Assembly (NCBI GenBank): GCA_026018925.1
Contig: JAKSZU010000050.1
Coordinates: 806,001 to 870,000 of the forward strand
Source of the DNA: Tupaia tana
Lineage: Eukaryota > Chordata > Mammalia > Scandentia > Tupaiidae
Direction: 5' to 3'
DNA: 64,000 nt
The notes beneath the pieces are model-generated. The model saw only the letters and a list, made by a program, of their open reading frames with translations, was not told where the DNA came from and did no database searches. Position numbers and translations under genes: made by a program. The stretch's first letter is position 1, and each line of letters begins with the position of its first letter. Shown here piece after piece: positions 37,632 to 59,828 of this stretch.

Positions 37632-40600
37632 GCTACTCTTAGTTTTCGGGTCAGTGTTATGGTTGGAGTTAGCGTGAGGGTCAGGTTAGGGTTGGGGTTG
37701 AGCTTAAGGTGTCTCCCTAGGGCTAGGGTTAGGTTTATGGTTTTATTTAGGCTTCAGGTTAGGTTAGGTTTGAACATAGTTTGAGGGAGTAAGTTTAAGC
37801 CTACTGTTAGTTTTCGGTTCAGTGTTACGGTTGGAGATAGCGTCAGGGTCAGGTTAGGGTTGGGGTTGAGCTTCAGGTGTCCGCCTAGGGTTAGGGTTAG
37901 GTCTATGGTTTGAGTAAGGCTTCAGGTTAGGTTAGGTTTGAACTTAGTTTGAGGGAGTAAGTTTAGGGCTACTGTTAGTTTTCGGTTAAGTGTTACGGAT
38001 GGAGTTAGGGACAGGGTCAGGTTAGGTTGGGGGTTAAGCATAAGGTGTCCGCCTCGGGTTAGGGTTAGGTCTATGGTTTGATTTAGGCTTCAGGTTAGGT
38101 TACCTTTGAACTTCGATTGAGTGAGTAAGTTTCAGCCTACTGTTAGTTTTCGATTCAGTGTTAAGGTTGGAGTTAGCGTCAGGGTCAGGGTAGGGTTGGG
38201 GTTGAGTTTAAGGTGTCCGCCTAGGGTTAGGATTAGGTGTATGGTTTGATTTAGGCTTCAGGTTAGGTTAGGTTGAAACTTAGTTAGAGGGAGTAAGTTT
38301 AGGGCTACTGTTAGTTTTCGGTTCAGTGTTATGGTTGGAGTTAGCATGAGGGTCAGGTTAGGGTGGGGGTTGAGCTTCAGGTGTCTTCCAAGGGTTAGGG
38401 TTAGGTCTATGGTTTGAGTTAGGCTTCAGGTTAGGTTAGGTTTGAACTTAGTTTGAGGGAGTAAGTTTAGGCCTACTGTTAGTTTTCGGTTCAGTGTTAC
38501 AGTTGGAGTTAGCGTGAGGGTAAGTTTAGGGTTGGGGTTGAGCTTAAGGTGTCCCCCTAGGGTTAGGGTTAGGTGTATGGTTTGATTTAGGCTTCAGGTT
38601 AGGTTAGGTTTGAACTTAGTTTGAGGGAGTAAGTTTAGGGCTACTGTTAGTTTTCGGTTCAGTGTTACGGTTGGAGTTAGCGTGAGGGTAGGGTTGGGGT
38701 TGAGTTTAAGGTGTCCGCCTAGGGTTAGGGTTAGGTGTATGGTTTGATTTAGGCTTCAGGTTAGGTTAGGTTTAAACTTAGTTAGAGGGAGTAAGTTTAG
38801 GGCTACTGTTAGTTTTCGGTTCAGTGTTATGGTTGGATTTAGCGTGAGGGTCAGGTTAGGGTTTGGGTTGAGCTTAAGGTGTCCCCCTAGGGTTAGGGTT
38901 AGGTTTATGGTTTGATTTAGGCATCAGGTTAGGTTAGGTTTGAACTTAGTTTGAAGGAGTAACTTTAAGCCTACTGTTATTTTTCGGTTCAGTGTTACGT
39001 TTGAAGATAGCGTCAGGGTCAGGTTAGGGTTGGGGTTGAGCTTCAGGTGTCCGTCTAGGGTTAGGGTTAGGTCTATGGTTTGAGTTAGGCTTCAGGTTAT
39101 GTTAGGTTTGAACTTAGTTTGAGGGAGTAAGTTTAGGGCTACTGTTAGTTTTCGGTTCAGTGTTACGGTTGGATTTAGCATCTGGGTCAGGTTAGGGTTG
39201 GGGTTGAGCTTAAGATGTCCGCCTAGGGTTAGGGTTAGGTGTATGGTTTGAGTTAGGCTTCAGGTTAGGTTAGGTTTGAACTTAGTTTGAGGGAGTAAGT
39301 TTAGGGCTATTGTTAGTTTTCGTTTCAGTGTTACAGTTCGAGTTATCGTCAGGGTCAGGGTAGGGTTGGGGTTGAGTTTAAATTGTCCGCCTAGGGTTAT
39401 GATTAGGTGTATGGTTTGATTTAGGCTTCAGGTTAGGTTACGTTTGAACTTAGTTTGAGGGAGTAAGTTTAGTGCTACTGTTAGTTTTCGGTTCATTGTT
39501 ACGGTTGGAGTTAGGGTCAGGGTCAGGTTAGGGTTGGGGTTGAGCTTAAGGTGTCCGCCTAGGGTTAGGGTTAGGTCTATGGTTTGAGTTAGGCTTCAGG
39601 TTAGGTTAGGTTTGAACTTAGTTTGAGGGAGTAAATTTAGGGCTACTGGTAGTTTTCGGTTCAGTGTTATGGTTGTAGATAGCGTCAGGGTCAGGTTAGT
39701 GTTGGGGTTGAGCTTCAGGTGTCCGCCTAGGGTTATAGTTAGGTCTATGGTTGAGTTAGGCTCCAGGTTAGGTTAGGTTTGAACTTAGTTTGAGGGAGTA
39801 AGTTTAGGGCTACTGTTAATTTTCGGTTCAGTGTTACGGTTGGAGTTAGTGTCAGGGTCGGGTTAGTGATGTGGTTGAGCTTAAGATGTTCGCCTAGGGT
39901 TAGGATTAGGTGTATGGTTTGATTTAGGCTTCACGTTAGATTAGGTTTGAACTTAGTTTGAGGGAGCAAGTTTAGGGCTATTGTTAGTTTTCGGTTCAGT
40001 GTTACGGTTCGAGTTAGCGTCAGGGTCAGTGTAGGGTTGGGGTTGAGTTTAAATTGTCCACCTAGGGTTATGATTAGGTGTATGGTTTGATTTAGGCTTC
40101 AGGTTAGGTTATGTTTGAACTTAGTTTGAGGGAGTAAGTTTAGGGCTACTGTTAGTTTTCGCTTCAGTGTTACGGTTGGAGTTAGGGTCAGGGTCAGGTT
40201 AGGGTTGCGGTTGAGCTTAAGGTTTCCGCCTAGGGTTAGGGTTAGGTCTATGGTATGAGTTAGGCTCCAGGTTAGGTTAGGTTTGAACTTAGTTTGAGGG
40301 AGTAAGTTTAGGGCTACTGTTAATTTAAGTTTCAGTGTTACGATTGGAGTTAGTGTCAGGGTCAGGTTAGTGTTGTGGTTGAGCTTAAGATGTTTGCCTA
40401 GGGTTAGGATTAGGTGTATGGTTTGATTTAGGCTTCAGGTTAGATTAGGTTTGAACTTAGTTTGAGGGAGTGTGTTTAGGTCTACTGTTAGTTTTCGGTT
40501 CAGAGTTACAGTTGGAGTTAGCGTTTGGGTCAGGTTAGGGTTGGGGTTGAGCTTAAGGTGCCCGCCTAGGGTCAGTGTTAGGTGTATGGTTTGATTTAGG

Positions 40601-40984
40601 CTTCAGGTTAGGTTAGGTTTGAACTTAGTTTTCGGGAATAAGTTTAGGGCTACTGTTAGTTTTCGATTAACTGTTACGGTTGGAGTTAGCGTGAGGGTCA
40701 TGTTAGGGTTGGGGTTGAGCTTAAGGTGTCCCCCTAGGGTTAGGCTTAGGTGTATGGTTTGATTTAGTCTTCAGGTTAGGTGAGGTTTGAACTTAGTTTG
40801 AGAGAGTAAGTTTAGGGTTACTGTTATTTTTCGGTTAACTGTTACGTTTCGAGTTAGCGTCAGGGTCAGGGTAGGGTTGGGGTTGAGTTTAAGGTGTCCG
40901 CCTAGGGTTAGGGTTAGGTGTATGGTTTGATTTAGGCTTCAGGTTAGGTTAGGTTTAAACTTAGTTAGAGGGAGTAAGTTTAGG
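37632..40984 (+). repeat. Higher-order repeat copy A (20 units, 3353 bp)
   Basis: The phase is set at GCTACTCTTAG (37632), which recurs at 40985, 44836, 48188, 51541, 54894 and 58246. GGATGGAG followed by AGGGACAGGG gives the same spacing (37997, 41350, 45201, 48553, 51906, 55259, 58611). The period 3353 equals 20 x 168 minus 7: one unit (38580-38741) is 162 bp because GAGGGTAGGGTTGGGG lacks 6 bp, and one has ATGGTTGAG in place of ATGGTTTGAG. Copy A is the first and carries older states such as GGTTGGATTTAG and GTGATGTGG. Confidence 0.93.
38580..38741 (+). repeat. 162-bp short monomer, marker unit of the higher-order repeat
   Basis: From GTTTGA at 38580 to the next at 38742 is 162 bp. GAGGGTAGGGTTGGGG replaces GAGGGTCAGGTTAGGG TTGGGG, a loss of exactly one hexamer. 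It occurs once per higher-order copy (twice in B) and is a convenient marker for counting copies. Confidence 0.88.
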
Positions 40985-43900
40985 GCTACTCTTAGTTTTC
41001 GGTTCAGTGTTATGGTTGGAGTTAGCGTGAGGGTCAGGTTAGGGTTGGGGTTGAGCTTAAGGTGTCTCCCTAGGGTTAGGGTTAGGTTTATGGTTTGATT
41101 TAGGCTTCAGGTTAGGTTAGGTTTGAACTTAGTTTGAGGGAGTAAGTTTAAGCCTACTGTTAGTTTTCGGTTCAGTGTTACGGTTGGAGATAGCGTCAGG
41201 GTCAGGTTAGGGTTGGGGTTGAGCTTCAGGTGTCCGCCTAGGGTTAGGGTTAGGTCTATGGTTTGAGTAAGGCTTCAGGTTAGGTTAGGTTTGAACTTAG
41301 TTTGAGGGAGTAAGTTTAGGGCTACTGTTAGTTTTCGGTTCAGTGTTACGGATGGAGTTAGGGACAGGGTCAGGTTAGGTTGGGGGTTAAGCATAAGGTG
41401 TCCGCCTCGGGTTAGGGTTAGGTCTATGGTTTGATTTAGGCTTCAGGTTAGGTTACCTTTGAACTTAGATTGAGTGAGTAAGTTTCAGCCTACTGTTAGT
41501 TTTCGATTCAGTGTTACGGTTGGAGTTAGCGTCAGGGTCAGGGTAGGGTTGGGGTTGAGTTTAAGGTGTCCGCCTAGGGTTAGGATTAGGTGTATGGTTT
41601 GATTTAGGCTTCAGGTTAGGTTAGGTTTAAACTTAGTTAGAGGGAGTAAGTTTAGGGCTACTGTTAGTTTTCGGTTCAGTGTTATGGTTGGAGTTAGCAT
41701 GAGGGTCAGGTTAGGGTGGGGGTTGAGCTTCAGGTGTCTTCCAAGGGTTAGGGTTAGGTCTATGGTTTGAGTTAGGCTTCAGGTTAGGTTAGGTTTGAAC
41801 TTAGTTTGAGGGAGTAAGTTTAGGGCTACTGTTAGTTTTCGGTTCAGTGTTACAGTTGGAGTTAGCGTGAGGGTAAGTTTAGGGTTGGGGTTGAGCTTAA
41901 GGTGTCCCCCTAGGGTTAGGGTTAGGTGTATGGTTTGATTTAGGCTTCAGGTTAGGTTAGGTTTGAACTTAGTTTGAGGGAGTAAGTTTAGGGCTACTGT
42001 TAGTTTTCGGTTCAGTGTTACGGTTGGAGTTAGCCTGAGGGTAGGGTTGGGGTTGAGTTTAAGGTGTCCGCCTAGGGTTAGGGTTAGGTGTATGGCTTGA
42101 TTTAGGCTTCAGGTTAGTTTAGGTTTTAACTTAGTTAGAGGGAGTAAGTTTAGGGCTACTGTTAGTTTTCGGTTCAGTGTTATGGTTGGAGTTAGCATGA
42201 GGGTCAGGTTAGGGTGGGGGTTGAGCTTCAGGTGTCTTCCAAGGGTTAGGGTTAGGTCTATGGTTTGAGTTAGGCTTCAGGTTAGGTTAGGTTTGAACTT
42301 AGTTTGAGGGAGTAAGTTTAGGGCTACTGTTAGTTTTCGGTTCAGTGTTACAGTTGGAGTTAGCTTGAGGGTAAGTTTAGGGTTGGGGTGGAGCTTAAGG
42401 TGTCCCCCTAGGGTTAGGGTTAGGTGTATGGTTTGATTTAGGCTTCAGGTTAGGTTAGGTTTGAACTTAGTTTGAGGGAGTAAGTTTAGGGCTACTGTTA
42501 GTTTTCGGTTCAGTGTTACGGTTGGAGTTAGCGTGAGGGTAGGGTTGGGGTTGAGTTTAAGGTGTCCGCCTAGGGTTAGGGTTAGGTGTATGGTTTGATT
42601 TAGGCTTCAGGTTAGGTTAGGTTTAAACTTAGTTAGAGGGAGTAAGTTTAGGGCTACTGTTAGTTTTCGGTTCAGTGTTATGGTTGGATTTAGCGTGAGG
42701 GTCAGGTTAGGGTTTGGGTTGAGCTTAAGGTGTCCCCCTAGGGTTAGGGTTAGGTTTATGGTTTGATTTAGGCATCAGGTTAGGTTAGGTTTGAACTTAG
42801 TTTGAGGGAGTAACTTTAAGCCTACTGTTATTTTTCGGTTCAGTGTTACGTTTGAAGATAGCGTCAGGGTCAGGTTAGGGTTGGGGTTGAGCTTCAGGTG
42901 TCCGTCTAGGGTTAGGGTTAGGTCTATGGTTTGAGTTAGGCTTCAGGTTAGGTTAGGTTTGAACTTAGTTTGAGGGAGTAAGTTTAGGGCTACTGTTAGT
43001 TTTCGGTTCAGTATTACGGTTGGATTTAGCATCTGGGTCAGGTTAGGGTTGGGGTTGAGCTTAAGATGTCCGCCTAGGGTTAGGGTTAGGTGTATGGTTT
43101 GAGTTAGGCTTCAGGTTAGGTTAGGTTTGAACTTAGTTTGAGGGAGTAAGTTTAGGGCTATTGTTAGTTTTCGTTTCAGTGTTACAGTTCGAGTTATCGT
43201 CAGGGTCAGGGTAGGGTTGGGGTTGAGTTTAAATTGTCCGCCTAGGGTTATGATTAGGTGTATGGTTTGATTTAGGCTTCAGGTTAGGTTACGTTTGAAC
43301 TTAGTTTGAGGGAGTAAGTTTAGGGCTACTGTTAGTTTTCGGTTCATTGTTACGGTTGGAGTTAGGGTCAGGGTCAGGTTAGGGTTGGGGTTGAGCTTAA
43401 GGTGTCCGCCTAGGGTTAGGGTTAGGTCTATGGTTTGAGTTCGGCTTCAGGTTAGGTTAGGTTTGAACTTAGTTTGAGGGAGTAAATTTAGGGCTACTGG
43501 TAGTTTTCGGTTCAGTGTTATGGTTGTAGAGAGCGTCAGGGTCAGGTTAGTGTTGGGGTTGAGCTTCAGGTGTCCGCCTAGGGTTATAGTTAGGTCTATG
43601 GTTGAGTTAGGCTCCAGGTTAGGTTAGGTTTGAACTTAGTTTGAGGGAGTAAGTTTAGGGCTACTGTTAATTTTCGGTTCAGTGTTACGGTTGGAGTTAG
43701 TGTCAGGGTCGGGTTAGTGATGTGGTTGAGCTTAAGATGTTCGCCTAGGGTTAGGATTAGGTGTATGGTTTGATTTAGGCTTCAGGTTAGATTAGGTTTG
43801 AACTTAGCTTGAGGGAGCAAGTTTAGGGCTATTGTTAGTTTTCGGTTCAGTGTTACGGTTCGAGTTAGCGTCAGGGTCAGTGTAGGGTTGGGGTTGAGTT

Positions 43901-44835
43901 TAAATTGTCCACCTAGGGTTATGATTATGTGTATGGTTTGATTTAGGCTTCAGGTTAGGTTACGTTTGAACTTAGTTTGAGGGAGTAAGTTTAGGGCTAC
44001 TGTTAGTTTTCGCTTCAGTGTTACGGTTGGAGTTAGGGTCAGGGTCAGGTTAGGGTTGCGGTTGAGCTTAAGGTTTCCGCCTAGGGTTAGGGTTAGGTCT
44101 ATGGTATGAGTTAGGCTCCAGGTTAGGTTAGGTTTGAACTTAGTTTAAGGGAGTAAGTTTAGGGCTACTGTTAATTTTCGTTTCAGTGTTACGATTGGAG
44201 TTAGTGTCAGGGTCAGGTTAGTGTTGTGGTTGAGCTTAAGATGTTTGCCTAGGGTTAGGATTAGGTGTATGGTTTGATTTAGGCTTCAGGTTAGATTAGG
44301 TTTGAACTTAGTTTGAGGGAGTGTGTTTAGGTCTACTGTTAGTTTTCGGTTCAGAGTTACAGTTGGAGTTAGCGTTTGGGTCAGGTTAGGGTTGGGGTTG
44401 AGCTTAAGGTGCCCGCCTAGGGTCAGGGTTAGGTGTATGGTTTGATTTAGGCTTCAGGTTAGGTTAGGTTTGAACTTAGTTTTCGGGAATAAGTTTAGGG
44501 CTACTGTTAGTTTTCGATTAACTGTTACGGTTGGAGTTAGCGTGAGGGTCATGTTACGGTTGGGGTTGAGCTTAAGGTGTCCCCCTAGGGTTAGGCTTAG
44601 GTGTATGGTTTGATTTAGGCTTCAGGTTAGGTGAGGTTTGAACTTAGTTTGAGAGAGTAAGTTTAGGGTTACTGTTATTTTTCGGTTAACTGTTACGTTT
44701 CGAGTTAGCGTCAGGGTCAGGGTAGGGTTGGGGTTGAGTTTAAGGTGTCCGCCTAGGTTTAGGGTTAGGTGTATGGTTTGATTTAGGCTTCAGGTTAGGT
44801 TAGGTTTAAACTTAGTTAGAGGGAGTAAGTTTAGG
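40985..44835 (+). repeat. Higher-order repeat copy B with 3-unit insertion (3851 bp)
   Basis: Same unit order as copy A, but 498 bp longer because an internal three-unit block is present twice (see 41734-42729). 498 is 3 x 168 minus 6, since the duplicated block includes the 162-bp unit. Otherwise it carries the A-type states (CCCCCTAGGG, TTTGGGTCAGG). Confidence 0.93.
41734..42729 (+). repeat. 498-bp internal tandem duplication inside copy B
   Basis: GTGTCTTCCAAGGG occurs once per higher-order copy elsewhere (38381 in A) but twice here, at 41734 and 42232. The two halves run 41734-42231 and 42232-42729. Small differences, such as GTTAGCCTGAGGG in the first half against GTTAGCGTGAGGG in the second and GTTAGCTTGAGGG in the second against GTTAGCGTGAGGG in the first, show the copies have begun to diverge. 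Confidence 0.9.
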
Positions 44836-47800
44836 GCTACTCTTAGTTTTCGGTTCAGTGTTATGGTTGGAGTTAGCGTGAGGGTCAAGTTAGGGTTGGG
44901 GTTGAGCTTAAGGTGTCTCCCTAGGGTTAGGGTTAGGTTTATGGTTTTATTTAGGCTTCAGGTTAGGTTAGGTTTGAACTTAGTTTGAGGGAGTAAGTTT
45001 AAGCCTACTGTTAGTTTTCGGTTCAGTGTTACGGTTGGATATAGCGTCAGGGTCAGGTTAGGGTTGGGGTTGAGCTTCAGGTGTCCGCCTAGGGTTAGGG
45101 TTAGGTCTATGGTTTGAGTAAGGCTTCAGGTTAGGTTAGGTTTGAACTCAGTTTGAGGGAGTAAGTTTAGGGCTACTGTTAGTTTTCGGTTCAGTGTTAC
45201 GGATGGAGATAGGGACAGGGTCAGGTTCGGTTGGGGGTTAAGCATAAGGTGTCCGCCTCGGGTTAGGGTTAGGTCTATGGTTTGATTTAGGCTTCAGGTT
45301 AGGTTACCCTTGAATTTAGATTGAGTGAGTAAGTTTCAGCCTACTGTTAGTTTTCGATTCAGTGTTACGGTTGGAGTTAGCGTCAGGGTCAGGGTAGGGT
45401 TGGGGTTGAGTTTAAGGTGTCCGCCTAGGGTTAGGATTAGGTGTATGGTTTGATTTAGGCTTCAGGTTAGGTTAGGTTTAAACTTAGTTAGAGGGAGTAA
45501 GTTTAGGGCTACTGTTAGTTTTCGGTTCAGTGTTATGGTTGGAGTTAGCATGAGGGTCAGGTTAGGGTGGGGGTTGAGCTTCAGGTGTCTTCCAAGGGTT
45601 AGGGTTAGGTCTATGGTTTGAGTTAGGCTTCAGGTTAGGTTAGGTTTGAACTTAGTTTGAGGGAGTAAGTTTAGGGCTACTGTTAGTTTTCGGTTCAGTG
45701 TTACAGTTGGAGTTAGCGTGAGGGTAAGTTTAGGGTTGGGGTTGAGCTTAAGGTGTCCCCCTAGGGTTAGGGTTAGGTGTATGGTTTGATTTAGGCTTCA
45801 GGTTAGGTTAGGTTTGAACTTAGTTTGAGGGAGTAAGTTTAGGGCTACTGTTAGTTTTCGGTTCAGTGTTACGGTTGGAGTTAGCGTGAGGGTAGGGTTG
45901 GGGTTGAGTTTAAGGTGTCCGCCTAGGGTTAGGGTTAGGTGTATGGTTTGATTTAGGCTTCAGGTTAGGTTAGGTTTAAACTTAGTTAGAGGGAGTAAGT
46001 TTAGGGCTACTGTTAGTTTTCGGTTCAGTGTTATGGTAGGATTTAGCGTGAGGGTCAGATTAGGGTTTGGGTTGAGCTTAAGGTGTCCCCCTACTGTTAG
46101 GGTTAGGTTTATGGTTTGATTTAGGCATCAGGTTAGGTTAGGTTTGAACTTAGTTTGAGGGAGTAACTTTAAGCCTACTGTTATTTTTCGGTTCAGTGTT
46201 ACGTTTGAAGATAGCGTCAGGGTCAGGTTAGGGTTGGGGTTGAGCTTCAGGTGTCCGTCTAGGGTTAGGGTTAGGTCTATGGTTTGAGTTAGGCTTCAGG
46301 TTAGGTTAGGTTTGAACTTAGTTTGAGGGAGTAAGTTTAGGGCTACTGTTAGTTTTCGGTTCAGTGTTACGGTTGGATTTAGCATCTGGGTCAGGTTAGG
46401 GTTGGGGTTGAGCTTAAGATGTCCGCCTAGGGTTAGGGTTAGGTGTATGGTTTGAGTTAGGCTTCAGGTTAGGTTAGGTTTGAACTTAGTTTGAGGGAGT
46501 AAGTTTAGGGCTATTGTTAGTTTTCGTTTCAGTGTTACAGTTCGAGTTATCGTCAGGGTCAGGGTAGGGTTGGGGTTGAGTTTAAATTGTCCGCCTAGGG
46601 TTATGATTAGGTGTATGGTTTGATTTAGGCTTCAGGTTAGGTTACGTTTGAACTTAGTTTGAGGGAGTAAGTTTAGGGCTACTGTTAGTTTTCGGTTCAT
46701 TGTTACGGTTGGAGTTAGGGTCAGGGTCAGGTTAGGGTTGGGGTTGAGCTTAAGGTGTCCGCCTAGGGTTAGGGTTAGGTCTATGGTTTGAGTTAGGCTT
46801 CAGGTTAGGTTAGGTTTGAACTTAGTTTGAGGGAGTAAATTTAGGGCTACTGGTAGTTTTCGGTTCAGTGTTATGGTTGTAGATAGCGTCAGGGTCAGGT
46901 TAGTGTTGGGGTTGAGCTTCAGGTGTCCGACTAGGGTTATAGTTAGGTCTATGGTTGAGTTAGGCTCCAGGTTAGGTTAGGTTTGAACTTAGTTTGAGGG
47001 AGTAAGTTTAGGGCTACTGTTAATTTTCGGTTCAGTGTTACGGTTGGAGTTAGTGTCAGGGTCGGGTTAGTGATGTGGTTGAGCTTAAGATGTTCGCCTA
47101 GGGTTAGGATTAGGTGTATGGTTTGATTTAGGCTTCAGGTTAGATTAGGTTTGAACTTAGTTTGAGGGAGCAAGTTTAGGGCTATTGTTAGTTTTCGGTT
47201 CAGTGTTACGGTTCGAGTTAGCGTCAGGGTCAGTGTAGGGTTGGGGTTGAGTTTAAATTGTCCACCTAGGGTTATGATTAGGTGTATGGTTTGATTTAGG
47301 CTTCAGGTTAGGTTACGTTTGAACTTAGTTTGAGGGAGTAAGTTTAGGGCTACTGTTAGTTTTCGCTTCAGTGTTACGGTTGGAGTTAGGGTCAGGGTCA
47401 GGTTAGGGTTGCGGTTGAGCTTAAGGTTTCCGCCTAGGGTTAGGGTTAGGTCTATGGTATGAGTTAGGCTCCAGGTTAAGTTAGGTTTGAACTTAGTTTG
47501 AGGGAGTAAGTTTAGGGCTACTGTTAATTTTCGTTTCAGTGTTACGATTGGAGTTAGTGTCAGGGTCAGGTTAGTGTTGTGGTTGAGCTTAAGATGTTTG
47601 CCTAGGGTTAGGATTAGGTGTATGGTTTGATTTAGGCTTCAGGTTAGATTAGGTTTGAACTTAGTTTGAGGGAGTGTGTTTAGGTCTACTGTTAGTTTTC
47701 GGTTCAGAGTTACAGTTGGAGTTAGCGTTTGGGCCAGGTTAGGGTTGGGGTTGAGCTGAAGGTGCCCGCCTAGGGTCAGGGTTAGGTGTATGGTTTGATT

Positions 47801-48187
47801 TAGGCTTCAGGTTAGGTTAGGTTTGAACTTAGTTTTCGGGAATAGGTTAGGGCTACTGTTAGTTTTCGATTAACTGTTACGGTTGGAGTTAGCGTGAGGG
47901 TCATGTTACGGTTGGGGTTGAGCTTAAGGTGTCCCCCTAGGGTTAGGCTTAGGTGTATGGTTTGATTTAGGCTTCAGGTTAGGTGAGGTTTGAACTTAGT
48001 TTGAGAGAGTAAGTTTAGGGTTACTGTTATTTTTCGGTTAACTGTTACGTTTCGAGTTAGCGTCAGGGTCAGGGTAGTGTTGGGGTTGAGTTTAAGGTGT
48101 CCGCCTAGGGTTAGGGTTAGGTGTATGGTTTGATTTAGGCTTCAGGTTAGGTTAGGTTTAAACTTAGTTAGAGGGAGTAAGATTAGG
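44836..48187 (+). repeat. Higher-order repeat copy C (3352 bp)
   Basis: First of three nearly identical copies (C, D, E). Shared states absent from A and B include GGATATAGCG (45037), GGTAGGATTTAG, CCCCCTACTG, TCCGACTAGGG, TTTGGGCCAGG and GTAGTGTTGGGG near the end. It is 1 bp short because AATAGGTTAGGG at about 47842 replaces AATAAGTTTAGGG. Confidence 0.93.
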
Positions 48188-51100
48188 GCTACTCTTAGTT
48201 TTCGGTTCAGTGTTATGGTTGGAGTTAGCGTGAGGGTCAAGTTAGGGTTGGGGTTGAGCTTAAGGTGTCTCCCTAGGGTTAGGGTTAGGTTTATGGTTTT
48301 ATTTAGGCTTCAGGTTAGGTTAGGTTTGAACTTAGTTTGAGGGAGTAAGTTTAAGCCTACTGTTAGTTTTCGGTTCAGTGTTACGGTTGGATATAGCGTC
48401 AGGGTCAGGTTAGGGTTGGGGTTGAGCTTCAGGTGTCCGCCTAGGGTTAGGGTTAGGTCTATGGTTTGAGTAAGGCTTCAGGTTAGGTTAGGTTTGAACT
48501 TAGTTTGAGGGAGTAAGTTTAGGGCTACTGTTAGTTTTCGGTTCAGTGTTACGGATGGAGTTAGGGACAGGGTCAGGTTAGGTTGGGGGTTAAGCATAAG
48601 GTGTCCGCCTCGGGTTAGGGTTTGGTCTATGGTTTGATTTAGGCTTCAGGTTAGGTTACCTTTGAACATAGATTGAGTGAGTAAGTTTCAGCCTACTGTT
48701 AGTTTTCGATTCAGTGTTACGGTTGGAGTTAGCGTCAGGGTCAGGGTAGGTTTGGGGTTGAGTTTAAGGTGTCCGCCTAGGGTTAGGATTAGGTGTATGG
48801 TTTGATTTAGGCTTCAGGTTAGGTTAGGTTTAAACTTAGTTAGAGGGAGTAAGTTTAGGGCTACTGTTAGTTTTCGGTTCAGTGTTATGGTTGGAGTTAG
48901 CATGAGGGTCAGGTTAGGGTGGGGGTTGAGCTTCAGGTGTCTTCCAAGGGTTAGGGTTAGGTCTATGGTTTTATTTAGGCTTCAGGTTAGGTTAGGTTTG
49001 AACTTAGTTTGAGGGAGTAAGTTTAGGGCTACTGTTAGTTTTCGGTTCAGTGTTACAGTTGGAGTTAGCGTGAGGGTAAGTTTAGGGTTGGGGTTGAGCT
49101 TAAGGTGTCCCCCTAGGGTTAGGGTTAGGTGTATGGTTTGATTTAGGCTTCAGGTTAGGTTAGGTTTGAACTTAGTTTGAGGGAGTAAGTTTAGGGCTAC
49201 TGTTAGTTTTCGGTTCAGTGTTACGGTTGGAGTTAGCGTGAGGGTAGGGTTGGGGTTGAGTTTAAGGTGTCCGCCTAGGGTTAGGGTTAGGTGTATGGTT
49301 TGATTTAGGCTTCAGGTTAGGTTAGGTTTAAACTTAGTTAGAGGGAGTAAGTTTAGGGCTACTGTTAGTTTTCGGTTCAGTGTTATGGTAGGATTTAGCG
49401 TGAGGGTCAGATTAGGGTTTGGGTTGAGCTTAAGGTGTCCCCCTACTGTTAGGGTTAGGTTTATGGTTTGATTTAGGCATCAGGTTAGGTTAGGTTTGAA
49501 CTTAGTTTGAGGGAGTAACTTTAAGCCTACTGTTATTTTTCGGTTCAGTGTTACGTTTGAAGATAGCGTCAGGGTCAGGTTAGGGTTGGGTTTGATCTTC
49601 AGGTGTCCGTCTAGGGTTAGGGTTAGGTCTATGGTTTGAGTTAGGCTTCAGGTTAGGTTAGGTTTGAACTTAGTTTGAGGGAGTAAGTTTAGGGCTACTG
49701 TTAGTTTTCGGTTCAGTGTTACGGTTGGATTTAGCATCTGGGTCAGGTTAGGGTTGGGGTTGAGCTTAAGATGTCCGCCTAGGGTTAGGGTTAGGTGTAT
49801 GGTTTGAGTTAGGCTTCAGGTTAGGTTAGGTTTGAACTTAGTTTGAGGGAGTAAGTTTAGGGCTATTGTTAGTTTTCGTTTCAGTGTTACAGTTCGAGTT
49901 ATCGTCAGGGTCAGGGTAGGGTTGGGGTTGAGTTTAAATTGTCCGCCTAGGGTTATGATTAGGTGTATGGTTTGATTTAGGCTTCAGGTTAGGTTACGTT
50001 TGAACTTAGTTTGAGGGAGTAAGTTTAGGGCTACTGTTAGTTTTCGGTTCATTGTTACGGTTGGAGTTAGGGTCAGGGTCAGGTTAGGGTTGGGGTTGAG
50101 CTTAAGGTGTCCGCCTAGGGTTAGGGTTAGGTCTATGGTTTGAGTTAGGCTTCAGGTTAGGTTAGGTTTGAACTTAGTTTGAGGGAGTAAATTTAGGGCT
50201 ACTGGTAGTTTTCGGTTCAGTGTTATGGTTGTAGATAGCGTCAGGGTCAGGTTAGTGTTGGGGTTGAGCTTCAGGTGTCCGACTAGGGTTATAGTTAGGT
50301 CTATGGTTGAGTTAGGCTCCAGGTTAGGTTAGGTTTGAACTTAGTTTGAGGGAGTAAGTTTAGGGCTACTGTTAATTTTCGGTTCAGTGTTACGGTTGGA
50401 GTTAGTGTCAGGGTCGGGTTAGTGATGTGGTTGAGCTTAAGATGTTCGCCTAGGGTTAGGATTAGGTGTATGGTTTGATTTAGGCTTCAGGTTAGATTAG
50501 GTTTGAACTTAGTTTGAGGGAGCAAGTTTAGGGCTATTGTTAGTTTTCGGTTCAGTGTTACGGTTCGAGTTAGCGTCAGGGTCAGTGTAGGGTTGGGGTT
50601 GAGTTTAAATTGTCCACCTAGGGTTATGATTAGGTGTATGGTTTGATTTAGGCTTCAGGTTAGGTTACGTTTGAACTTAGTTTGAGGGAGTAAGTTTAGG
50701 GCTACTGTTAGTTTTCGCTTCAGTGTTACGGTTGGAGTTAGGGTCAGGGTCAGGTTAGGGTTGCGGTTGAGCTTAAGGTTTCCGCCTAGGGTTAGGGTTA
50801 GGTCTATGGTATGAGTTAGGCTCCAGGTTAGGTTAGGTTTGAACTTAGTTTGAGGGAGTAAGTTTAGGGCTACTGTTAATTTTCGTTTCAGTGTTACGAT
50901 TGGAGTTAGTGTCAGGGTCAGGTTAGTGTTGTGGTTGAGCTTAAGATGTTTGCCTAGGGTTAGGATTAGGTGTATGGTTTGATTTAGGCTTCAGGTTAGA
51001 TTAGGTTTGAACTTAGTTTGAGGGAGTGTGTTTAGGTCTACTGTTAGTTTTCGGTTCAGAGTTACAGTTGGAGTTAGCGTTTGGGCCAGGTTAGGGTTGG

Positions 51101-51540
51101 GGTTGAGCTTAAGGTGCCCGCCTAGGGTCAGGGTTAGGTGTATGGTTTGATTTAGGCTTCAGGTTAGGTTAGGTTTGAACTTAGTTTTCGGGAATAAGTT
51201 TAGGGCTACTGTTAGTTTTCGATTAACTGTTACGGTTGGAGTTAGCGTGAGGGTCATGTTACGGTTGGGGTTGAGCTTAAGGTGTCCCCCTAGGGTTAGG
51301 CTTAGGTGTATGGTTTGATTTAGGCTTCAGGTTAGGTGAGGTTTGAACTTAGTTTGAGAGAGTAAGTTTAGGGTTACTGTTATTTTTCGGTTAACTGTTA
51401 CGTTTCGAGTTAGCGTCAGGGTCAGGGTAGTGTTGGGGTTGAGTTTAAGGTGTCCGCCTAGGGTTAGGGTTAGGTGTATGGTTTGATTTAGGCTTCAGGT
51501 TAGGTTAGGTTTAAACTTAGTTAGAGGGAGTAAGATTAGG
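48188..51540 (+). repeat. Higher-order repeat copy D (3353 bp)
   Basis: Near-identical to C and E, with all the C-E diagnostic states. It also has GGGTTTGGTC (shared with E and G) and GGTTTTATTTAGG near 48969 (shared with F but not C or E), so variants are distributed as a mosaic rather than as a simple tree. Confidence 0.93.
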
Positions 51541-54500
51541 GCTACTCTTAGTTTTCGGTTCAGTGTTATGGTTGGAGTTAGCGTGAGGGTCAAGTTAGGG
51601 TTGGGGTTGAGCTTAAGGTGTCTCCCTAGGGTTAGGGTTAGGTTTATGGTTTTATTTAGGCTTCAGGTTAGGTTAGGTTTGAACTTAGTTTGAGGGAGTA
51701 AGTTTAAGCCTACTGTTAGTTTTCGGTTCAGTGTTACGGTTGGATATAGCGTCAGGGTCAGGTTAGGGTTGGGGTTGAGCTTCAGGTGTCCGCCTAGGGT
51801 TAGGGTTAGGTCTATGGTTTGAGTAAGGCTTCAGGTTAGGTTAGGTTTGAACTTAGTTTGAGGGAGTAAGTTTAGGGCTACTGTTAGTTTTCGGTTCAGT
51901 GTTACGGATGGAGTTAGGGACAGGGTCAGGTTAGGTTGGGGGTTAAGCATAAGGTGTCCGCCTCGGGTTAGGGTTTGGTCTATGGTTTGATTTAGGCTTC
52001 AGGTTAGGTTACCTTTGAACATAGATTGAGTGAGTAAGTTTCAGCCTACTGTTAGTTTTCGATTCAGTGTTACGGTTGGAGTTAGCGTCAGGGTCAGGGT
52101 AGGGTTGGGGTTGAGTTTAAGGTGTCCGCCTAGGGTTAGGATTAGGTGTATGGTTTGATTTAGGCTTCAGGTTAGGTTAGGTTTAAACTTAGTTAGAGGG
52201 AGTAAGTTTAGGGCTACTGTTAGTTTTCGGTTCAGTGTTATGGTTGGAGTTAGCATGAGGGTCAGGTTAGGGTGGGGGTTGAGCTTCAGGTGTCTTCCAA
52301 GGGTTAGGGTTAGGTCTATGGTTTGAGTTAGGCTTCAGGTTAGGTTAGGTTTGAACTTAGTTTGAGGGAGTAAGTTTAGGGCTACTGTTAGTTTTCGGTT
52401 CAGTGTTACAGTTGGAGTTAGCGTGAGGGTAAGTTTAGGGTTGGGGTTGAGCTTAAGGTGTCCCCCTAGGGTTAGGGTTAGGTGTATGGTTTGATTTAGG
52501 CTTCAGGTTAGGTTAGGTTTGAACTTAGTTTGAGGGAGTAAGTTTAGGGCTACTGTTAGTTTTCGGTTCAGTGTTACGGTTGGAGTTAGCGTGAGGGTAG
52601 GGTTGGGGTTGAGTTTAAGGTGTCCGCCTAGGGTTAGGGTTAGGTGTATGGTTTGATTTAGGCTTCAGGTTAGGTTAGGTTTAAACTTAGTTAGAGGGAG
52701 TAAGTTTAGGGCTACTGTTAGTTTTCGGTTCAGTGTTATGGTAGGATTTAGCGTGAGGGTCAGATTAGGGTTTGGGTTGAGCTTAAGGTGTCCCCCTACT
52801 GTTAGGGTTAGGTTTATGGTTTGATTTAGGCATCAGGTTAGGTTAGGTTTGAACTTAGTTTGAGGGAGTAACTTTAAGCCTACTGTTATTTTTCGGTTCA
52901 GTGTTACGTTTGAAGATAGCGTCAGGGTCAGGTTAGGGTTGGGGTTGAGCTTCAGGTGTCCGTCTAGGGTTAGGGTTAGGTCTATGGTTTGAGTTAGGCT
53001 TCAGGTTAGGTTAGGTTTGAACTTAGTTTGAGGGAGTAAGTTTAGGGCTACTGTTAGTTTTCGGTTCAGTGTTACGGTTGGATTTAGCATCTGGGTCAGG
53101 TTAGGGTTGGGGTTGAGCTTAAGATGTCCGCCTAGGGTTAGGGTTAGGTGTATGGTTTGAGTTAGGCTTCAGGTTAGGTTAGGTTTGAACTTAGTTTGAG
53201 GGAGTAAGTTTAGGGCTATTGTTAGTTTTCGTTTCAGTGTTACAGTTCGAGTTATCGTCAGGGTCAGGGTAGGGTTGGGGTTGAGTTTAAATTGTCCGCC
53301 TAGGGTTATGATTAGGTGTATGGTTTGATTTAGGCTTCAGGTTAGGTTACGTTTGAACTTAGTTTGAGGGAGTAAGTTTAGGGCTACTGTTAGTTTTCGG
53401 TTCATTGTTACGGTTGGAGTTAGGGTCAGGGTCAGGTTAGGGTTGGGGTTGAGCTTAAGGTGTCCGCCTAGGGTTAGGGTTAGGTCTATGGTTTGAGTTA
53501 GGCTTCAGGTTAGGTTAGGTTTGAACTTAGTTTGAGGGAGTAAATTTAGGGCTACTGGTAGTTTTCGGTTCAGTGTTATGGTTGTAGATAGCGTCAGGGT
53601 CAGGTTAGTGTTGGGGTTGAGCTTCAGGTGTCCGACTAGGGTTATAGTTAGGTCTATGGTTGAGTTAGGCTCCAGGTTAGGTTAGGTTTGAACTTAGTTT
53701 GAGGGAGTAAGTTTAGGGCTACTGTTAATTTTCGGTTCAGTGTTACGGTTGGAGTTAGTGTCAGGGTCGGGTTAGTGATGTGGTTGAGCTTAAGATGTTC
53801 GCCTAGGGTTAGGATTAGGTGTATGGTTTGATTTAGGCTTCAGGTTAGATTAGGTTTGAACTTAGTTTGAGGGAGCAAGTTTAGGGCTATTGTTAGTTTT
53901 CGGTTCAGTGTTACGGTTCGAGTTAGCGTCAGGGTCAGTGTAGGGTTGGGGTTGAGTTTAAATTGTCCACCTAGGGTTATGATTAGGTGTATGGTTTGAT
54001 TTAGGCTTCAGGTTAGGTTACGTTTGAACTTAGTTTGAGGGAGTAAGTTTAGGGCTACTGTTAGTTTTCGCTTCAGTGTTACGGTTGGAGTTAGGGTCAG
54101 GGTCAGGTTAGGGTTGCGGTTGAGCTTAAGGTTTCCGCCTAGGGTTAGGGTTAGGTCTATGGTATGAGTTAGGCTCCAGGTTAGGTTAGGTTTGAACTTA
54201 GTTTGAGGGAGTAAGTTTAGGGCTACTGTTAATTTTCGTTTCAGTGTTACGATTGGAGTTAGTGTCAGGGTCAGGTTAGTGTTGTGGTTGAGCTTAAGAT
54301 GTTTGCCTAGGGTTAGGATTAGGTGTATGGTTTGATTTAGGCTTCAGGTTAGATTAGGTTTGAACTTAGTTTGAGGGAGTGTGTTTAGGTCTACTGTTAG
54401 TTTTCGGTTCAGAGTTACAGTTGGAGTTAGCGTTTGGGCCAGGTTAGGGTTGGGGTTGAGCTTAAGGTGCCCGCCTAGGGTCAGGGTTAGGTGTATGGTT

Positions 54501-54893
54501 TGATTTAGGCTTCAGGTTAGGTTAGGTTTGAACTTAGTTTTCGGGAATAAGTTTAGGGCTACTGTTAGTTTTCGATTAACTGTTACGGTTGGAGTTAGCG
54601 TGAGGGTCATGTTACGGTTGGGGTTGAGCTTAAGGTGTCCCCCTAGGGTTAGGCTTAGGTGTATGGTTTGATTTAAGCTTCAGGTTAGGTGAGGTTTGAA
54701 CTTAGTTTGAGAGAGTAAGTTTAGGGTTACTGTTATTTTTCGGTTAACTGTTACGTTTCGAGTTAGCGTCAGGGTCAGGGTAGTGTTGGGGTTGAGTTTA
54801 AGGTGTCCGCCTAGGGTTAGGGTTAGGTGTATGGTTTGATTTAGGCTTCAGGTTAGGTTAGGTTTAAACTTAGTTAGAGGGAGTAAGATTAGG
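51541..54893 (+). repeat. Higher-order repeat copy E (3353 bp)
   Basis: Near-identical to D; carries GGATATAGCG (51742), CCCCCTACTG, TCCGACTAGGG, TTTGGGCCAGG and GTAGTGTTGGGG. A private change is TTTAAGCTTCAGG near 54671, which creates a HindIII-type AAGCTT site. Confidence 0.93.
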
Positions 54894-57800
54894 GCTACTC
54901 TTAGTTTTCGGTTCAGTGTTATGGTTGGAGTTAGCGTGAGGGTCAAGTTAGGGTTGGGGTTGAGCTTAAGGTGTCTCCCTAGGGTTAGGGTTAGGTTTAT
55001 GGTTTTATTTAGGCTTCAGGTTAGGTTAGGTTTGAACTTAGTTTGAGGGAGTAAGTTTAAGCCTACTGTTAGTTTTCGGTTCAGTGTTACGGTTGGATAT
55101 AGCGTCAGGGTCAGGTTAGGGTTGGGGTTGAGCTTCAGGTGTCCGCCTAGGGTTAGGGTTAGGTCTATGGTTTGAGTAAGGCTTCAGGTTAGGTTAGGTT
55201 TGAACTTAGTTTGAGGGAGTAAGTTTAGGGCTACTGTTAGTTTTCGGTTCAGTGTTACGGATGGAGATAGGGACAGGGTCAGGTTAGGTTGGGGGTTAAG
55301 CATAAGGTGTCCGCCTCGGGTTAGGGTTAGGTCTATGGTTTGATTTAGGCTTCAGGTTAGGTTACTTTGAACTTAGATTGAGTGAGTAAGTTTCAGCCTA
55401 CTGTTAGTTTTCGATTCAGTGTTACGGTTGGAGTTAGCGTCAGGGTCAGGGTAGGGTTGGGGTTGAGTTTAAGGTGTCCGCCTAGGGTTAGGATTAGGTG
55501 TATGGTTTGATTTAGGCTTCAGGTTAGGTTAGGTTTAAACTTAGTTAGAGGGAGTAAGTTTAGGGCTACTGTTAGTTTTCGGTTCAGTGTTATGGTTGGA
55601 GTTAGCATGAGGGTCAGGTTAGGGTGGGGGTTGAGCTTCAGGTGTCTTCCAAGGGTTAGGGTTAGGTCTATGGTTTTATTTAGGCTTCAGGTTAGGTTAG
55701 GTTTGAACTTAGTTTGAGGGAGTAAGTTTAGGGCTACTGTTAGTTTTCGGTTCAGTGTTACAGTTGGAATTAGCGTGAGGGTAAGTTTAGGGTTGGGGTT
55801 GAGCTTAAGGTGTCCCCCTAGGGTTAGGGTTAGGTGTATGGTTTGATTTAGGCTTCAGGTTAGGTTAGGTTTGAACTTAGTTTGAGGGAGTAAGTTTAGG
55901 GCTACTGTTAGTTTTCGGTTCAGTGTTACGGTTGGAGTTAGCGTGAGGGTAGGGTTGGGGTTGAGTTTAATGTGTCCTCGTAGGGTTAGGGTTAGGTGTA
56001 TGGTTTGATTTAGGCTTCAGGTTAGGTTAGGTTTAAACTTAGTTAGAGGGAGTAAGTTTAGGGCTACTGTTAGTTTTCGGTTCAGTGTTATGGTAGGATT
56101 TAGCGTGAGGGTCAGATTAGGGTTTGGGTTGAGCTTAAGGTGTCCCCCTAGGGTTAGGGTTAGGTTTATGGTTTGATTTAGGCATCAGGTTAGGTTAGGT
56201 TTGAACTTAGTTTGAGGGAGTAACTTTAAGCCTACTGTTATTTTTCGGTTCAGTGTTACGTTTGAAGATAGCGTCAGGGTCAGGTTAGGGTTGGGGTTGA
56301 GCTTCAGGTGTCCGTCTAGGGTTAGGGTTAGGTCTATGGTTTGAGTTAGGCTTCAGGTTAGGTTAGGTTTGAACTTAGTTTGAGGGAGTAAGTTTAGGGC
56401 TACTGTTAGTTTTCGTTTCAGTGTTACGGTTGGATTTAGCATCTGGGTCAGGTTAGGGTTGGGGTTGAGCTTAAGATGTCCGCCTAGGGTTAGGGTTAGG
56501 TGTATGGTTTGAGTTAGGCTTCAGGTTAGGTTAGGTTTGAACTTAGTTTGAGGGAGTAAGTTTAAGGCTATTGTTAGTTTTCGTTTCAGTGTTACAGTTC
56601 GAGTTATCGTCAGGGTCAGGGTAGGGTTGGGGTTGAGTTTAAATTGTCCGCCTAGGGTTATGATTAGGTGTATGGTTTGATTTAGGCTTCAGGTTAGGTT
56701 ACGTTTGAACTTAGTTTGTGGGAGTAAGTTTAGGGCTACTGTTAGTTTTTGGTTCATTGTTATGGTTGGAGTTAGGTTCAGGGTCAGGTTAGGGTTGGGG
56801 TTGAGCTTAAGGTGTCCGCCTAGGGTTAGGGTTAGGTCTATGGTTTGAGTTAGGCTTCAGGTTAGGTTAGGTTTGAACTTAGTTTGAGGGAGTAAATTTA
56901 GGGCTACTGGTAGTTTTCGGTTCAGTGTTACGGTTGTAGATAGCGTCAGGTTCAGGTTAGTGTTGGGGTTGAGCTTCAGGTGTCCGCCTAGGGTTATAGT
57001 TAGGTCTATGGTTGAGTTAGGCTCCAGGTTAGGTTAGGTTTGAACTTAATTTGAGGGAGTAAGTTTAGGGCTACTGTTAATTTTCGGTTCAGTGTTACGG
57101 TTGGAGTTAGTGTCAGGGTCGGGTTAGTGTTGTGGTTGAGCTTAAGATGTTCGCCTAGGGTTAGGATTAGGTGTATGGTTTGATTTAGGCTTCAGGTTAG
57201 ATTAGGTTTGAACTTAGTTTGAGGGAGCAAGTTTAGGGTTATTGTTAGTTTTCGGTTCAGTGTTACGGTTCGAGTTAGCGTCAGGGTCAGTGTAGGGTTG
57301 GGGTTGAGTTTAAATTGTCCACCTAGGGTTATGATTAGGTGTATGGTTTGATTTAGGCTTCAGGTTAGGTTACGTTTGAACTTAGTTTGAGGGAGTAAGT
57401 TTAGGGCTACTGTTAGTTTTCGCTTCAGTGTTACGGTTGGAGTTAGGGTCAGGGTCAGGTTAGGGTTGCGGTTGAGCTTAAGGTTTCCGCCTAGGGTTAG
57501 GGTTAGGTCTATGGTATGAGTTAGGCTCCAGGTTAGGTTAGGTTTGAACTTAGTTTGAGGGAGTAAGTTTAGGGCTACTGTTAATTTTCGTTTCAGTGTT
57601 ACGATTGGAGTTAGTGTCAGGGTCAGGTTAGTGTTGTGGTTGAGCTTAAGATGTTTGCCTAGGGTTAGGATTAGGTGTATGGTTTGATTTAGGCTTCAGG
57701 TTAGATTAGGTTTGAACTTAGTTTGAGGGAGTGTGTTTAGGTCTACTGTTAGTTTTCGGTTCAGAGTTACAGTTGGAGTTAGCGTTTGGGTCAGGTTAGG

Positions 57801-58245
57801 GTTGGGGTTGAGCTTAAGGTGCCCGCCAAGGGTCAGGGTTAGGTGTATGGTTTGATTTAGGCTTCAGGTTAGGTTGGGTTTGAACTTAGTTTTCGGGAAT
57901 AAGTTTAGGGCTACTGTTAGTTTGCGATTAACTGTTACGGTTGGAGTTAGCGTGAGGGTCATGTTACGGTTGGGGTTGAGCTTAAGGTGTCCCCCTAGGG
58001 TTAGGCTTAGGTGTATGGTTTGATTTAGGCTTCAGGTTAGGTGAGGTTTGAACTTAGTTTGAGAGAGTAAGTTTAGGGTTACTGTTATTTTTCGGTTAAC
58101 TGTTACGTTTCGAGTTAGCGTCAGGGTCAGGGTAGGGTTGGGGTTGAGTTTAAGGTGTCCGCCTAGGGTTAGGGTTAGGTGTATGGTTTGATTTAGGCTT
58201 CAGGTTAGGTTAGGTTTAAACTTAGTTAGAGGGAGTAAGTTTAGG
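54894..58245 (+). repeat. Higher-order repeat copy F, chimeric (3352 bp)
   Basis: The front of this copy matches C-E (GGATATAGCG at 55095, GGTAGGATTTAG near 56094), but from about 56147 it has the states of A, B and the last partial copy H: CCCCCTAGGG, TCCGCCTAGGG, TTTGGGTCAGG, and TTACGGTTGTAGATAG and TTAGTGTTGTGG, which only F and H share. The switch lies between about 56100 and 56150. It is 1 bp short at GTTACTTTGAAC (about 55364). Confidence 0.9.
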
Positions 58246-59828
58246 GCTACTCTTAGTTTTCGGTTCAGTGTTATGGTTGGAGTTAGCGTGAGGGTCAGGT
58301 TAGGGTTGGGGTTGAGCTTAAGGTGTCTCCCTAGGGTTAGGGTTAGGTTTATGGTTTGATTTAGGCTTCAGGTTAGGTTAGGTTTGAACTTAGTTTGAGG
58401 GAGTAAGTTTAAGCCTACTGTTAGTTTTCGGTTCAGTGTTACGGTTGGAGATAGCGTCAGGGTCAGTTTAGGGTTGGGGTTGAGCTTCAGGTGTCCGCCT
58501 AGGGTTAGGGTTAGGTCTATGGTTTGAGTAAGGCTTCAGGTTAGGTTAGGTTTGAACTTAGTTTGAGGGAGTAAGTTTAGGGCTACTGTTAGTTTTCGGT
58601 TCAGTGTTACGGATGGAGTTAGGGACAGGGTCAGGTTAGGTTGGGGGTTAAGCATAAGGTGTCCGCCTCGGGTTAGGGTTTGGTCTATGGTTTGATTTAG
58701 GCTTCAGGTTAGGTTACCTTTGAACATAGATTGAGTGAGTAAGTTTCAGCCTACTGTTAGTTTTCGATTCAGTGTTACGGTTGGAGTTAGCGTCAGGGTC
58801 AGGGTAGGGTTGGGGTTGAGTTTAAGGTGTCCGCCTAGGGTTAGGATTAGGTGTATGGTTTGATTTAGGCTTCAGGTTAGGTTAGGTTTAAACTTAGTTA
58901 GAGGGAGTAAGTTTAGGGCTACTGTTAGTTTTCGGTTCAGTGTTATGGTTGGAGTTAGCATGAGGGTCAGGTTAGGGTGGGGGTTGAGCTTCAGGTGTCT
59001 TCCAAGGGTTAGGGTTAGGTCTATGGTTTGAGTTAGGCTTCAGGTTAGGTTAGGTTTGAACTTAGTTTGAGGGAGTAAGTTTAGGGCTACTGTTAGTTTT
59101 CGGTTCAGTGTTACAGTTGGAGTTAGCGTGAGGGTAAGTTTAGGGTTGGGGTTGAGCTTAAGGTGTCCCCCTAGGGTTAGGGTTAGGTGTATGGTTTGAT
59201 TTAGGCTTCAGGTTAGGTTAGGTTTGAACTTAGTTTGAGGGAGTAAGTTTAGGGCTACTGTTAGTTTTCGGTTCAGTGTTACGGTTGGAGTTAGCGTGAG
59301 GGTAGGGTTGGGGTTGAGTTTAAGGTGTCCGCCTAGGGTTAGGGTTAGGTGTATGGTTTGATTTAGGCTTCAGGTTAGGTTAGGTTTAAACTTAGTTAGA
59401 GGGAGTAAGTTTAGGGCTACTGTTAGTTTTCGGTTCAGTGTTATGGTTGGATTTAGCGTGAGGGTCAGGTTAGGGTTTGGGTTGAGCTTAAGTTGTCCCC
59501 CTATGGTTAGGTTTAGGTTTATGGTTTGATTTAGGCATCAGGTTAGGTTAGGTTTGAACTTAGTTTGAGGGAGTAACTTTAAGCCTACTGTTATTTTTCG
59601 GTTCAGTGTTACGTTTGAAGATAGCGTCAGGGTCAGGTTAGGGTTGGGCTTGAGCTTCAGGTGTCCGTCTAGGGTTAGGGTTAGGTCTATGGTTTGAGTT
59701 AGGCTTCAGGTTAGGTTAGGTTTGAACTTAGTTTGAGGGAGTAAGTTTAGGGCTACTGTTAGTTTTCGGTTCAGTGTTACGGTTGGATTTAGCATCTGGG
59801 TCAGGTTAGGGTTGGGGTTGAGCTTAAG
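58246..59828 (+). repeat. Higher-order repeat partial copy G (about 9.4 units)
   Basis: Follows the copy order up to TTAGCATCTGGGTCAGG, then leaves it at about 59828, where AGCTTAAGGTGTCCCCC replaces the expected AGCTTAAGATGTCCGCC. It has A/B-type states (GGAGATAGCG, GGTTGGATTTAG) rather than those of C-F. Confidence 0.88.

Follow-up and report, generated by a model that had tools for sequence, protein, structure and literature searches.

Recent, local tandem amplification as the probable origin of a 20-monomer higher-order repeat in a telomere-like 168-bp satellite of Tupaia tana

In a 64,000-nucleotide stretch of the Tupaia tana genome (hereafter the window; assembly GCA_026018925.1, contig JAKSZU010000050.1, positions 806,001 to 870,000 of the forward strand), monomers of a 168-bp satellite recur in a fixed order of 20, creating a period of 3353 bp. 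Does this higher-order repeat (HOR) reflect the way in which the satellite as a whole is organized, as its likeness to alpha-satellite HORs might suggest, or a local event within the array? Our analysis makes it highly probable that the 20-mer arose by recent, local tandem amplification within a megabase-scale, telomere-derived satellite.

The host satellite fills the window without interruption and in a single orientation, with the G-rich strand on + (positions 1-64000). Tandem Repeats Finder, one of the checks suggested in the preliminary description, returned a 168-bp satellite of 381.7 copies with 88% matches, and GC skew lay between 0.51 and 0.59 in 64 of 64 1-kb bins. The same one-strand satellite continues in the surrounding 224 kb, and all 20 further samples taken along the 1.47-Mb contig consisted of it. 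Its earlier designation as telomere-like was borne out by the consensus monomer, which consists of 28 in-register hexamers, with 106 of its 168 bases matching TTAGGG in the best phase (20-85 in the five other phases). Mean circular identity at multiples of six was 0.472, versus 0.300 ± 0.008 in 5000 shuffles, and the strongest inner distances of the consensus were 78 and 90 bp. TTAGGG occurs 2989 times in the 224 kb, as against one CCCTAA (counted in 2-kb bins). Thus, in-register degenerate TTAGGG, measured against a shuffle control, and strand asymmetry, as expected of a telomere-derived satellite, are both present. An exact 32-mer of the satellite matched 129,369 times in the assembly, and its total was extrapolated to 72-85 Mb; titles and abstract openings of the open-licence PMC literature yielded no 168-bp telomere-like mammalian satellite. 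Within the window, potential G-quadruplex words on the + strand numbered 21 for three-G words (12.5 ± 3.0 in 20 shuffles) and 822 for two-G words (396.9 ± 12.3), with none on the - strand. Coding content was rejected, the longest between-stop stretch in the 64 kb (111 codons) being taken as repeat-driven. Elsewhere in the assembly, contig C1198 (16,812 bp) carries a cytochrome b gene that looks mammalian; a rough comparison with eight mammalian cytochromes b gave 84-87% for each of them. Words taken to mark particular SINE families had no hits for the supposed xenarthran, AfroSINE and rodent ID types and 32 (13 + 19) for 7SL-derived SINEs, and serve as leads only.

The chromosomal position of the satellite is suggested by another contig, C608, which begins with a word of a 313-bp repeat. 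Short samples (36-50 bases) at 0.1, 0.5, 1.0 and 1.6 Mb of C608 were 168-bp satellite on the + strand, and among the matches listed, a TTAGGG tract lies on the same strand at most 5.6 kb from the contig end. This order (313-bp repeat, 168-bp satellite, TTAGGG tract) and the strand are as expected of a chromosome end, seen in one contig and through short samples; the telomere-derived 168-bp satellite is probably subterminal. It may form heterochromatin at chromosome ends, on the side that faces the telomere. The word of the 313-bp satellite had 225,434 exact matches and starts a 71-Mb contig in addition to C608.

Might the satellite, then, be a functional telomere-like reserve, kept for TRF1/TRF2 binding and chromosome-end support, with HOR patches as by-products? 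The shared strand of satellite and TTAGGG tract on C608 would fit, as would the density of YTAGGGTTR, which we take to be a TRF-type word: a monomer contains the word 1.97 times on average, always on the same strand, and conservation of its two best sites (intact copies in 72% and 71% of monomers) is somewhat above average. Decayed telomere repeats contain such words anyway, however, and the two sites rank only 30 and 34 among 160 nine-base windows (114 for a third site), other stretches of the monomer being better conserved. We therefore consider such a reserve unlikely. Selection on TRF-type motifs as such was rejected, as two sites were somewhat above average and not outstanding.

To delimit the 20-mer, we decomposed the 224 kb into 1335 monomers, 1285 of which passed a score cut, and compared them in an all-against-all identity table. 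In the interval 37632-59828, monomers 20 apart shared 97.6% mean identity (111 pairs), while every other distance between 1 and 30 gave 88.9-91.7%. This confirms the HOR. In 200 permutations of the block's monomers, the best distance (among 1-60) did not exceed 91.1%. Monomer identity diagonals placed the block at 37750-59869 on the + strand (132 monomers); the block first described at 37632-59828 was thereby upheld, with its limits moved by 118 and 41 bp. It contains six full copies, as described before, and parts of two more where one partial copy had been counted, namely the last three monomers of a preceding copy (37750-38253, +) and the first six of a seventh (58868-59869, +), amounting to 6.6 copies in 22 kb as assembled. 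Within one unit, monomers were on average 89.2% identical, whereas the six units matched each other at 98.7-99.7%. Divergent monomers, a repeated order and higher identity between units, i.e. the general features of a HOR, were thus all found, and the permutation control supports them.

The most frequent exact 60-base self-matches in the window fell at offsets of 3353, 3352, 2516 and 3851 bp; those at 3353 and 3352 bp are the periods described before. Two 36-mer markers (A and B), each with seven sites in the block (the seventh of marker B at window positions 59593-59628), were spaced 3851, 3353, 3352, 3353, 3352 and 3353 bp apart, reproducing the reported phase spacing including its one long gap. 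This gap results from a tandem duplication of three monomers (498 bp; 41607-42104), which separates copy 1 (38254-41606, 3353 bp) from copy 2 (42105-45457, 3353 bp). These are followed by copy 3 (45458-48809, 3352 bp), copy 4 (48810-52162, 3353 bp), copy 5 (52163-55514, 3352 bp) and copy 6 (55515-58867, 3353 bp); all these elements lie on the + strand. The unit length had been explained as 20 x 168 minus 6 and 1 bp, with one further loss in the shorter copies. Indeed, each full unit contains one 162-bp and one 167-bp monomer, and a further base is missing from both 3352-bp units, at a different site in each.

Near-identical tandem units are a known assembly hazard, and the copy number could be inflated or copies wrongly joined, particularly for copies 3-5, which are 99.7% alike and differ at only 9-10 positions (copies 1, 2 and 6 are about 99% alike); every contig sample being satellite, there is also no unique anchor. 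Pairwise differences among the six full copies are graded, however, ranging from 9 to 44 positions, and 55 of the 71 variable columns are seen in a single copy. These differences, some of them private to each copy, argue that the assembler did not simply multiply a single unit. Moreover, the three-monomer duplication and an HOR fragment at 62051 interrupt the pattern in the way expected of a real history, and we regard an artefact as quite improbable.

How far does the 20-mer extend beyond this locus? Across the 2.95-Gb assembly, searched with exact words that diverged copies escape, all seven matches to marker B fell within the block. Marker A had 13 exact matches, seven of them in the block and six on four other contigs, none of these at 3353-bp spacing. 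A 401-bp piece of the HOR matched contig C542 at 99% on the reverse strand, and the separate fragment 2 kb downstream of the block (62051-64000 on the + strand, running on to 64563 beyond the window) comprises 15 monomers of the 20-mer with 98.3-98.7% monomer-level identity to the HOR copies. The C542 match, the six outside matches of marker A and this downstream piece together indicate that parts of the HOR unit are shared; the periodic block itself, as far as the markers test it, is private to the locus.

Within the array, the 20-mer looks like one of several local patches and not the standard organization of the satellite. The 224 kb hold patches with units of 10, 13, 14, 15, 16, 20 and 31 monomers side by side; one of them (2866-7729, +) consists of two 14-monomer pieces at an offset of 15 monomers (2516 bp), with a monomer identity of 1.000 as rounded. 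When copied segments were searched for at distances up to 60 monomers, 63.2% of the 1285 monomers had a relative that was 97% or more identical, compared to 17.0% in a control that took the closest match among 120 monomers drawn at random from more than 200 monomers away. The leading distances of such pairs were 31, 20, 15, 16, 10 and 37 monomers. Pairs of at least 97% identity were present in 20 of 20 further contig samples, at scattered distances with none in common. At distances of 1-4 monomers such pairs were seldom seen (0.5%), so slippage by single monomers is not what chiefly drives the copying.

In arrays of the alpha-satellite type, one HOR dominates over a long stretch and is often chromosome-specific, CENP-B boxes occur in a regular subset of monomers, and CENP-A chromatin is present. 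The likeness drawn in the preliminary description holds for form and fails for array organization, the block accounting for 22 kb of a 1.47-Mb contig alongside other unit lengths. A chromosome-specific array of this type, maintained for the centromere or another chromosome function, would share the form of the block (about 89% between monomers in a unit, 98.7-99.7% between units), but is very unlikely given a block of only 22 kb and 6.6 copies, the differing unit lengths around it, the confinement of one marker to it, the lack of an exact CENP-B box (TTCGNNNNANNCGGG) on either strand of the 224 kb, and a 313-bp satellite that may be the better centromere candidate. An alpha-like HOR that is chromosome-wide was rejected in view of the marker counts and varied unit lengths.

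Taken together, the small extent and copy number of the block, its differing neighbor patches, the scattered distances in the contig samples and the marker counts look like local amplification. Stretches ranging from several monomers to tens of them repeatedly recur as copies nearby, which gives short patches of varied unit number, and the array keeps its 168-bp register. Such copying may come from sister chromatids that exchange or repair DNA out of register, i.e. by unequal crossing-over or break-induced replication, and the 20-mer itself would be under no selection. Copies 1, 2 and 6 (about 99%) may go back to an earlier round than copies 3-5 (99.7%), and a small event of its own would account for the three-monomer duplication. 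The HOR is ordinary in kind; local tandem amplification probably produced it, and it is likely to be short-lived. What makes it useful is that it shows cleanly how multi-monomer units arise outside primate centromeres: patches that differ in size and divergence are preserved next to each other in this array.

Of greater interest may be the host satellite, a telomere-derived 168-bp family of, by extrapolation, tens of megabases, which in one contig is flanked by the 313-bp satellite on one side and a TTAGGG tract on the other. A wider scheme, which we put forward tentatively and with considerable doubt, would be that of an undescribed mammalian satellite of ~75 Mb shaped by telomere-repeat decay and re-amplification, forming megabase caps just inside the telomeres and subject to end-specific repair that copies segments of several up to tens of monomers, and to an unusual, transversion-rich mutation spectrum with an apparently low share of transitions. 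The 20-mer would then be a snapshot of a series leading from 6 bp via 78/90 bp and 168 bp to local units of 1.7-5.2 kb.

Among known systems, heterochromatic interstitial telomeric sequences and the 'heavy satellite' of baleen whales are related to degenerate TTAGGG; compared by description, the present satellite differs in a monomer that is in most cases exactly 168 bp long and has a 78/90 substructure. African great apes carry subterminal heterochromatic caps (32-bp satellite, pCht), described in PMC12758386 as large telomere-adjacent satellite blocks with higher-order block types. The likeness lies in large satellite blocks near telomeres, a position here taken from one contig, and the difference in a 32-bp satellite there versus a 168-bp telomere-derived monomer here. 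A spacer was not noticed in the 224 kb of 168-bp satellite. As in alpha satellite, the copies of the block resemble each other far more than their constituent monomers do, consistent with PMC8122249, in which HORs are divergent monomers amplified together in blocks. Unlike alpha-satellite HORs, several unit lengths coexist in one array here, one marker is private to the locus, and the sequence is G-rich and telomere-derived. Finally, the unequal-exchange model of Smith, as PMC8122249 summarizes it, derives tandem repeats and multi-monomer units from random exchange; it describes a process and not a family, and the same process is what we propose for the 20-mer patch.

The entire 64-kb window (C653:806001-870000, in an assembly of 2.95 Gb and 1198 contigs) consists of a single 168-bp tandem array. 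Together with 80 kb on either side (224 kb in total), it was split into monomers using the consensus of the repeat-finding tool TRF, and all monomers were compared pairwise. Of the 1335 monomers obtained, 1135 were exactly 168 bp and 152 were 167 bp long, and mean monomer-monomer identity was 88.6% anywhere within the 224 kb; 50 monomers under the score cut were excluded from the general monomer statistics. The register jumps at C653:907451, and the 40 low-scoring monomers listed beyond this jump lie outside the window.

Exact 60-mers in the window recurred most frequently at offsets of 3353, 3352, 2516 and 3851 bp. Across the interval 37632-59828, to which the preliminary description had assigned a 20-unit, 3353-bp repeat, monomers 20 places apart were on average 97.6% identical. 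All other spacings between 1 and 30 gave 88.9-91.7%, the value of 91.7% at distance 23 being due to a 3-monomer duplication. When monomer order was shuffled (200 trials), best-distance identity was at most 91.1%, compared with 97.6% for the real order. By form, the 20-monomer block is a higher-order repeat (HOR). Its limits, 37750 and 59869, were defined by runs of monomer pairs with at least 96.5% identity, and in between three monomers are followed by a 20-monomer copy, the 3-monomer duplication, five 20-monomer copies and six monomers. The full copies 1-6 measure 3353, 3353, 3352, 3353, 3352 and 3353 bp, respectively; each contains one 162-bp and one 167-bp monomer, and both 3352-bp copies lack one further base, at a site that differs between them. 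The corresponding figures of the preliminary description, i.e. copy lengths, the 6-bp and 1-bp deletions and extra 1-bp losses, therefore hold.

Two 36-mers from the HOR unit were searched assembly-wide as exact words, which miss diverged copies. Marker A, spanning the 6-bp deletion, matched 13 times, seven times within the HOR block and six times outside (three on C33 and one each on contigs C333, C608 and C986), where the spacing was not 3353 bp; all seven matches of marker B fell within the block. A 401-bp piece of the HOR unit found a 99% match on C542 (40 of 7330 candidates scored), and pieces of the unit are thus present elsewhere.

Pairwise, the HOR copies differ at 9-44 of 3353 columns. 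Copies 3, 4 and 5 mutually differ by 9-10 and every other pair by 25-44, hence copies 3-5 look like a later amplification round. If neutral change amounts to 1-2 per thousand sites in a million years, the implied age is, as a rough figure blurred by conversion between copies, one to a few million years. Singleton substitutions between copies (38254-58867, majority-polarised; n = 53) comprised 19 transitions versus 34 transversions, and 446 near-identical, non-independent monomer pairs outside the block gave 332 versus 580. Recent variants are transversion-rich, G-T being the commonest change. Passages of one study link 8-oxoguanine to G>T at G-runs, and its abstract also mentions G>A in telomere repeats (PMC12795821). 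Alternatively, the transversion-rich spectrum may reflect sequencing or consensus error.

The 224 kb also contain a 31-monomer patch (window coordinates 75305-85706, i.e. on C653 outside the window; 5202 bp, two copies, 99.7%), a second 20-mer patch of 3355 bp, and 16-, 15-, 14-, 13- and 10-mers. Within 60 monomers, 63.2% of 1285 monomers had a relative of at least 97% identity, compared with 17.0% in a control that took the best match from 120 distant monomers drawn at random. Pairs at this threshold were rare at 1-4 monomers (0.5%) and peaked at 10-39 (1.7-1.8%), which argues that copied segments mostly comprise several to tens of monomers. In twenty further C653 samples (5 or 10 kb each), the share of monomers belonging to such pairs was 7-62%, and pair distances varied between samples. 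Segmental copying was in register, local, repeated and of several unit lengths, and may have proceeded via unequal exchange or repair between sister chromatids. The 20-mer bore no sign of selection. The motif that we take to be the TRF-type word (TRF1/TRF2 binding) occurs 1.97 times per monomer; of its three consensus sites, two rank 30th and 34th of 160 in conservation, somewhat better than average, and the third ranks 114th, below average.

The satellite consensus comprises 28 hexamers in one frame, TTAGGG being matched at 106 of 168 bases, and at 20-85 bases in the five remaining phases. Mean circular identity was 0.472 at multiples of six and 0.266 at other distances; 5000 shuffles gave 0.300 +/- 0.008 at multiples of six. 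Inner distances were strongest at 78 and 90, which, together with the in-frame hexamers, indicates a hierarchy of 6, 78/90, 168 and then local units. The array is strand-asymmetric, with TTAGGG occurring 2989 times in the 224 kb and CCCTAA once in 2-kb bins of the same region. A conserved 32-mer had 62,981 + 66,388 exact matches genome-wide, extrapolating to ~76, 85 or 72 Mb of satellite based on its density in the window, the 224 kb or 20 samples, respectively. Judging from open-licence papers, the 168-bp satellite may be undescribed.

On C653 (1,470,822 bp), the satellite lies on the + strand throughout the 224 kb and in 20 of 20 samples, including both ends. The contig start (C653:1-10000) is more decayed, with 59% of monomers not 168 bp long versus 0-28% in the other 19 samples; 7% of its monomers had a near-identical mate, as in two other samples (14-62% in the rest). 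Samples of 30-50 bases placed the satellite at both ends of C453 and C542, within each of which its strand switches, at the end of C475, at the start of C33, C333 and C986, and internally in C508. Contig C608 (1,715,603 bp) begins with another repeat, followed by the 168-bp satellite on the + strand (four short samples, 0.1-1.6 Mb) and, from 1,710,006 onward, a (TTAGGG)10 tract, likewise on the + strand. Assembly-wide, the 60-base (TTAGGG)10 word matched 901 times forward and 6 times in reverse, and the first 100 matches listed were all on C608; 901 overlapping matches would just fit a tract reaching the C608 end. Long perfect telomere repeats are thus scarce in 2.95 Gb, as if most chromosome ends were absent from the assembly.

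The repeat starting C608 also starts the 71-Mb contig C220. A 23-base word from it had 225,434 exact matches, spaced mostly by 311-317 bp or multiples among the matches listed (30 places on C2 and C3). We read this repeat as a second satellite of ~313 bp, perhaps centromeric, and the 168-bp satellite as lying on its telomere side on one contig, C608. The ~313-bp satellite, found at the starts of C608, C220, C2 and C3, would amount to ~71 Mb if each 23-base match equals one unit. Besides the mitochondrial one, partial cytochrome b copies occur in large contigs, e.g. C220, C419 and C420 (21 matches in total), the pattern that nuclear insertions of mitochondrial DNA would produce.

The likeness to alpha-satellite HORs proposed in the preliminary description stands as regards form and does not extend to an alpha-type array. 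Because neither of the two defining features tested was found, i.e. one HOR dominating the array at C653 or exact CENP-B boxes in the 224 kb, we do not class the block among alpha-type HOR arrays.
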